Below the pieces are notes generated by a model that ran no database searches, was not told the DNA's origin, and saw nothing but the letters and a program-made list of their open reading frames with translations. A program made the translations under genes and the position numbers. A stretch of DNA of 64,000 nt, from the NCBI RefSeq assembly GCF_001724815.1, contig NZ_MEDO01000002.1, positions 1 through 64,000 on the forward strand. The letters run 5' to 3'. This DNA comes from Arenimonas sp. SCN 70-307. Its GTDB lineage: Bacteria; Pseudomonadota; Gammaproteobacteria; Xanthomonadales; Xanthomonadaceae. Numbering within the stretch: the stretch's first letter is position 1; each line of letters starts with the position of its first letter. Shown here piece after piece: positions 52,571-53,778 of this stretch.

Positions 52571-53778
52571 ATGACCGAAGACCGCCAGGGCCGCTCCGGC
52601 GACAGCAGCAAGATCCTCTACTGCTCATTTTGCGGCAAGAGCCAGCACGAGGTCCGCAAGCTGATCGCTGGCCCCAGCGTGTTCATCTGCGATGAATGCG
52701 TCGAGCTGTGCAACGACATCATCCGCGAGGAGCTCGAGGAGAAGGCGCACGCCGCCCGCAGCCACCTGCCCAAGCCGCGCGAGATCCTCGAGGTGCTCGA
52801 CCAGTACGTCATCGGCCAGCGGCGCGCGAAGAAGACGCTGTCGGTCGCGGTGTACAACCACTACAAGCGCATCGAGAGCCGGATCAAGAACGACGACATC
52901 GAACTGTCGAAGTCCAACATCCTGCTGATCGGCCCGACCGGCTCGGGCAAGACGCTGCTGGCCGAGACGCTGGCGCGCCTGCTCAACGTGCCCTTCACCA
53001 TCGCCGACGCCACCACGCTCACCGAGGCGGGCTACGTCGGCGAGGACGTCGAGAACATCATCCAGAAGCTGCTGCAGAAGTGCGACTACGACGTCGACAA
53101 GGCGCAGCAGGGCATCGTCTACATCGACGAGATCGACAAGATCTCGCGCTGGCCTCGGTGCCGCCGCAGGGCGGCCGCAAGCACCCGCAGCAGGAATTCC
53201 TGCAGGTCGACACCAAGAACATCCTGTTCATCGTCGGCGGCGCGTTCGCCGGCCTGGACAAGGTGATCCAGGCGCGCAGCACCGAGGCCGGCGGCATCGG
53301 CTTCGGCGCCAAGGTCAAGAGTTCCGAGCGCAAGGCCGACATCGGCAAGCTGCTCTCGGAAGTCGAGCCGGAGGACCTGATCAAGTTCGGCCTGATCCCC
53401 GAGTTCGTCGGCCGCCTGCCGGTGGTCGCCACGCTCGAGGAGCTCGACGAGGCGGCGCTGGTGAAGATCCTCACCGAGCCCAAGAACGCCATCACCAAGC
53501 AGTTCAAGCGCCTGTTCGAAATGGAGGGCGTCGAGCTCGAGGTGCGCCCGGATGCGCTGATGGCCATCGCCCGCCGCGCGCTCAAGCGCAAGACCGGCGC
53601 CCGCGGCCTTCGCACCATCATGGAGTCGGTGCTGCTCGACACCATGTATGAGCTGCCGTCGCTGGAGAACGTCAGCAAGGTCGTCGTCGACGAGTCGGTG
53701 ATCAACCACCAGACCGAGCCCTACCTGATCTACAGCTCGGGCGCGCAGCCCGCGCCCAAGGCCGCTTCGGGCGACTGA
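52571..53778 (+). pseudogene. clpX: clpX, ClpXP unfoldase ATPase with an internal frameshifting deletion
   Basis: The N-terminal half is normal: zinc-binding domain ([17 protein letters not shown]...CDECVELC), Walker A GPTGSGKT, pore-1 loop GYVGED and Walker [12 protein letters not shown]. After KISR at 53149 the frame shifts; the sequence resumes in another frame with [15 protein letters not shown] and runs correctly to the stop at 53778. Compared with E. coli ClpX, 27 codons (pore-2 region, SITRDVSGEGVQQALL...) are missing. Adding 82 nt restores one 429-residue frame. As written, translation would end at 53266 after 231 residues. True deletion or assembly collapse cannot be told apart here. 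Confidence 0.93.

Follow-up and report, generated by a model that had tools for sequence, protein, structure and literature searches.

An 82-nucleotide gap breaks the clpX reading frame in a draft Xanthomonadaceae genome

Results

The gene of interest, clpX (positions 52571–53778, forward strand), lies in the window (the whole 64,000-nucleotide stretch analysed), which forms the start of a 170-kb contig (C2) within a 2.93-Mb draft assembly (2,928,465 bases in 35 contigs; completeness 99.98%) and is syntenic with the same-genus genome G021. The gene order at the locus is trigger factor, clpP, clpX, lon, HU and ppiD, where the products that we take to be trigger factor, HU and PpiD were named from their translations, and clpP and lon were confirmed by profile. 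Both confirmed genes are intact: clpP (51830–52453, forward strand) scores 342 bits with TIGR00493 (cut-off 308.6), as the first-pass annotation of this DNA had held, and lon (53913–56345, forward strand) scores 1014.8 bits with TIGR00763 (cut-off 608.05). In the same genome, clpP, lon, clpA and sspB are each matched over nearly their full length. By its sequence and its neighbourhood, the gene between clpP and lon is an ordinary ClpX orthologue. Elsewhere in the window, seven tRNA genes (Ser, Arg, Pro, Arg, His, Lys and Leu) are clustered at 49391–50414, upstream of the trigger factor gene, and a 435-aa amidohydrolase (39367–40674, reverse strand; PF01979, 177 bits) finds no match in the syntenic stretch of G021.

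Translation of clpX revealed that its frame is broken at 53149|53150. The frame that begins at 52571 encodes 193 ClpX residues up to 53149, and then runs out of frame through 38 missense residues (53150–53266, forward strand) to a stop at 53266; the predicted product of the deposited frame is thus 231 aa long. The original frame resumes at 53152 and stays open for 208 residues, until the stop at 53778. After DEIDKISR, the reading carries on in a different frame with (A)[13 protein letters not shown]; translation of both frames bears out this jump, which had been noticed on first reading. In an alignment to G021 (the nearest same-genus relative compared), 84 nt lie between the bases that match 53149 and 53152. 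Hence 82 nt are absent at the break, equivalent to 27 codons (those of the pore-2 loop among them) plus one base. Residue mapping onto E. coli ClpX places the loss at residues 192–218, with codon 219 cut, in agreement with the number of codons first proposed. One of the residues without a counterpart in the window is Val202, a pore-2 loop residue whose role is described in PMC7112951. The restored length of 429 residues given by the first-pass annotation equals that of G021 ClpX (429 aa), and is also the sum of 193 residues, 27 codons, the cut codon and 208 residues.

The two pieces on either side of the break were scored apart with the TIGR00382 profile. The 5' piece (52571–53149, forward strand; 193 codons) obtains 307.8 bits over profile positions 7–197, and the 3' piece (53152–53778, forward strand; 208 residues without an internal stop) 280.4 bits over positions 224–414. 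With 308 and 280 bits, chance is not at issue as the source of this two-piece match. Neither piece alone reaches the family cut-off of 370.75 bits. The 5' piece contains the C4 zinc-binding domain (PF06689 zf-C4_ClpX, 72.9 bits; its cysteine positions are those we presume for ClpX), followed by AAA domain matches and, by residue mapping onto E. coli, Walker A, the pore-1 loop and Walker B. The 3' piece (PF10431, PF07724) contains the RKH loop, the IGF region, the arginine finger, sensor II and the small domain; the DNA still encodes the last three, but not in the frame set by the clpX start.

Taken at face value, the 231-residue product would keep the zinc-binding domain and a portion of the large AAA+ domain. 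Missing from it would be the pore-2 loop, the RKH loop, the IGF region that binds ClpP, the arginine finger, sensor II and the small domain. Judging by the residue map together with what PMC7112951 says of these elements, such a product should neither hydrolyse ATP as a ring nor dock onto ClpP. As deposited, the record encodes no ClpX: the pieces fall below the family cut-off, and the AAA+ module is incomplete. Could the gene nevertheless work as two pieces, or by ribosomal frameshifting near the junction? Both frames are open and conserved, as such an arrangement would have them. On the other hand, a shifted product would still be missing 27 residues, including the pore-2 loop, no slippery motif was seen by eye at the junction, and no scored relative is built in this way. 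Since the catalytic module is interrupted and the 27 residues are absent, we regard a functional split ClpX as very unlikely, and give it next to no weight.

A second clpX, the search for which had been proposed on first reading, was not found by a TIGR00382 profile search of the contigs of the 2.93-Mb assembly. The weaker matches returned lie on contigs C15 and C14 and, from the profile positions they cover, look like an HslU and an FtsH-type ATPase, respectively. Neither was the missing segment found elsewhere in the assembly when a 141-nt piece of a relative, spanning the absent stretch, was used as query; it matched the two clpX flanks, the HslU-like gene on C15 (73%) and three places of 36–53 bases (78–83%). 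With flanks and weak matches as the only returns, we reject a second clpX or a relocated segment within the assembly.

An intact clpX might exist in the organism but outside the assembly, the broken copy being a second, decaying one or that of another strain. The assembly is a draft of 35 contigs, and one same-genus genome (G005; contamination 3%) has two long clpX matches (G005:C68:9089-10171 and G005:C107:17505-18707), one of which spans profile positions 7–375 only; contamination is a likely cause of that pair. Set against this possibility are (i) the place of the broken clpX, in the usual clpP-clpX-lon order on a 170-kb contig syntenic with G021, (ii) the assembly searches above, which turned up neither another clpX nor the missing stretch, and (iii) a 3' half that is not decaying (see below). 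We consider an intact copy elsewhere very improbable.

The rarity of the break was measured against relatives. Each of 26 same-genus genomes, with one clpX locus apiece, was searched with two 40-nt anchors. Both anchors were matched in 25 of the 26 loci, and 84 nt lie between them in every case, as opposed to 2 in the window, where 82 nt are therefore missing at 53149–53150 (forward strand). The frameshifting loss of 82 nt and the pore-2 region, as originally described, is thereby confirmed. The 26th locus (L126, from G015) was left unanchored; by profile its clpX is full length (positions 7–414). The deletion is private, being absent from the 25 scored same-genus loci. A lax pattern search for a shared junction (up to 3 mismatches allowed; 285 of 297 genomes matching) was too loose to use; among the matches listed, zero mismatches were seen in the window's own genome only.

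On a wider scale, 59 of the 61 genomes in the search of relatives have a clpX that clears the family cut-off, the two exceptions being the window's own genome and G033, which is 72% complete. The same holds for 363 of 377 genomes of the class (a sample filtered at 95% completeness). Ordered by best E-value, the 14 that fall below the cut-off are the window's own genome, G566 (8.7e-97) and 12 genomes between 4e-28 and 5e-24. Three of the 13 others were inspected: the clpX of G566 starts at a contig end, and the best matches of G337 and G574 are HslU-like. In E. coli, 5374 of 5426 complete genomes have a match to K-12 clpX by megablast, and 5372 of these 5374 cover at least 80% of the gene in one place, a measure to which smaller lesions are invisible. 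In the remaining 52, megablast found nothing matching the K-12 gene.

We also asked how old the loss might be, by comparing codon differences on the two sides of the break. Relative to G021, the 5' piece shows 1 nonsynonymous and 17 synonymous differences, and the 3' piece 5 and 21. To polarise the differences, we used four more relatives in the 5' piece; in the 3' piece, where two of the four have gaps, the remaining two served. On the window's own branch, the counts of nonsynonymous to synonymous codons are 1:9 in the 5' piece and 2:8 in the 3' piece. One synonymous codon of the 5' piece could not be polarised, nor could 2 nonsynonymous codons and 1 synonymous codon of the 3' piece. With a neutral expectation of 71–77% nonsynonymous changes, these counts give an omega of approximately 0.02–0.04 for the 5' piece and 0.08–0.10 for the 3' piece. 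The higher omega of the 3' half is not read as decay, because relatives compared among themselves show similar ratios (5' piece; 3' piece): 1:18; 13:30 for G021 and L131, 1:21; 13:32 for G021 and L129, and 0:7; 0:21 for L131 and L129. Except for the last and closest of these pairs, the ratio of the window's 3' half is no higher than that between relatives.

No stop has been gained in the 208 residues of the original frame in the 3' piece. With no stop, an omega of around 0.08–0.10 and a ratio like that of relatives, the locus does not behave as an old pseudogene: the 3' half shows strong purifying selection and no decay, such that any loss is very recent, although the substitution counts are small and a loss late on the window's own branch would escape notice. 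One reading of the locus is that 82 nt were truly deleted a very short time ago, by a join that needed no homology, and that the sequenced strain or clone thereby lost clpX function. Its ClpXP proteolysis would be gone, with ClpAP, Lon and probably HslUV carrying on. While the lack of relaxed selection in the 3' half speaks against a lost gene, an undecayed 3' half is also what a real deletion of recent date would leave.

The junction itself is free of repeats. No direct repeat or microhomology was found there, with a slide of 0 nt in 25 of 25 comparisons; this excludes slippage between direct repeats and the collapse of a simple repeat. A perfect 19-nt hairpin with a 7-bp stem (53128–53146; no strand assigned) ends 3 nt 5' of the junction, and the local single-stranded DNA folds better than its shuffles (z-score −3.2). 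Since the same 19-mer is present in 12 of the 25 intact same-genus loci, the hairpin explains little of the loss.

Finally, the quality of the assembly around clpX was examined by two routes. Firstly, 49 ORFs selected in the window were compared with G021: 45 match in one frame, 3 match partially (clpX, and two whose upstream parts find no counterpart, 32680–34956 and 59113–60531) and 1 has no match. In the opposite direction, an 80-kb stretch of G021 gave 65 ORFs, of which 45 have a one-frame match in the window covering 90% or more of their length; the remainder comprises 3 partial matches (clpX and two others), 15 ORFs of at least 100 aa without a match and 2 shorter ones left unlisted. The 15 unmatched ORFs are to be seen in the context of a G021 stretch that is longer than the window and differs in gene content. 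At 32680–34956, a 1-nt difference lies upstream of the start of what is presumably an ffh-like gene, and we read the other partial or unmatched ORFs as upstream ORF extensions or differences in gene content. The match of 45 of 49 window ORFs to G021 in one frame speaks against a generally error-rich assembly.

Secondly, contigs C2 and C14 were scanned without a reference for three-base periodicity. In C2 (150 coding segments), the scan gave one frame switch that no nearby stop accounts for, namely that in clpX; in 400 kb of C14 (306 segments), it gave none. Together, these 456 coding segments cover 570 kb, or roughly one fifth of the genome. When 82-nt losses were simulated, the scan picked up 34 of 60; at this sensitivity, a few more frame breaks elsewhere are possible. 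Neither 16S nor 23S rRNA was found in the window's own genome (G000), despite a completeness of 99.98%. This absence is compatible with a metagenome bin, and is weak evidence given that the controls were positive in 9 and 10 of 14 known genomes.

Discussion

The work above characterizes a break in an otherwise well-conserved clpX that is private, young if real, and the only one seen in the 570 kb scanned; these properties fit an artefact and a fresh null alike. The first-pass annotation had offered either a real loss of ClpXP activity or an assembly or consensus error, and both alternatives still stand. Its description of the real loss as an unusual state with regulatory consequences is not supported as established, given the undecayed 3' half and the retention of partner and adaptor genes.

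We lean, by a little, towards clpX being an ordinary housekeeping gene whose 82-nt loss is an artefact of the way the draft genome was assembled or binned. The loss would stem from a chimeric or badly closed join within one gene; it would have arisen in data processing rather than in the cell, and the organism itself would keep a working ClpX. This reading is favoured by the near universality of clpX, by intact SspB, ClpA, ClpP and Lon, and by the bin-like character of the genome. That it is placed slightly ahead of a recent null is a matter of judgement.

A genuine recent deletion is, to us, a serious contender that falls somewhat short of an even chance. The absence of repeats at the join and the otherwise clean neighbourhood speak for a join carried by some DNA. 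The genome retains ClpA and Lon, the deposited genome of E. coli NCTC9966 has an internal clpX deletion, and the loss of ClpX is survivable in the family, to go by the clpX and clpP mutants of Xanthomonas campestris cited in PMC9040725. Weighing against a real deletion are the rarity of such losses (5372 of 5374 matching E. coli genomes cover at least 80% of clpX), its presence in no scored relative and the retention of SspB. Mutations in sspB are reported as selected in Stenotrophomonas maltophilia (PMC7529437). A bolder version seems unlikely: in it, a lineage within the Xanthomonadaceae has really been without ClpX for a very short time, still has ClpP, ClpA and SspB, and makes a 231-residue zinc-domain fragment that might still bind SspB or substrates. 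Were this true, it would amount to a natural ClpXP null that lets one follow, from the outset, how regulated proteolysis is rewired.

The finding deserves checking against reads. If the deletion were real and common in the population, it would provide a natural ClpXP null in a class where clpX is nearly always found (363 of 377 genomes), against which the need for ClpX could readily be gauged. Should it be an artefact, no loss of ClpXP ought to be inferred from the deposited record.

In either case, the window holds no new kind of ClpX. Deletions that break a gene in this way, and assembly errors of the kind, are commonplace. The closest known system is ClpX itself (TIGR00382 / NF003745, the AAA+ unfoldase of ClpXP), which the broken gene resembles in both pieces, in its clpP and lon neighbours, and in its zinc finger, Walker A and B, pore-1, RKH, arginine finger and sensor II residues; it differs in the 82 nt gone with the pore-2 loop, the broken frame and pieces that each score below 370.75 bits. 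E. coli NCTC9966 (NZ_LS483296.1) likewise combines an internal clpX loss with intact clpP and lon. Its clpX, annotated at 888 nt (L175, NZ_LS483296.1 3539699-3543586, locus 1501-2388), is the weakest among the 40 E. coli matches listed. However, the loss in NCTC9966 is of 387 nt, in frame and between 18-bp direct repeats, and could be real or a collapse of the 18-bp repeat, whereas that in the window is of 82 nt, breaks the frame and has no repeat. Lastly, ClpX has been lost in the same bacterial family in clpX mutants of Xanthomonas campestris, cited in PMC9040725 and PMC8739992; the former gives pleiotropic defects for clpX and clpP mutants. Those mutants are laboratory-made and have known phenotypes, whereas the broken clpX described here comes from an assembled draft sequence.
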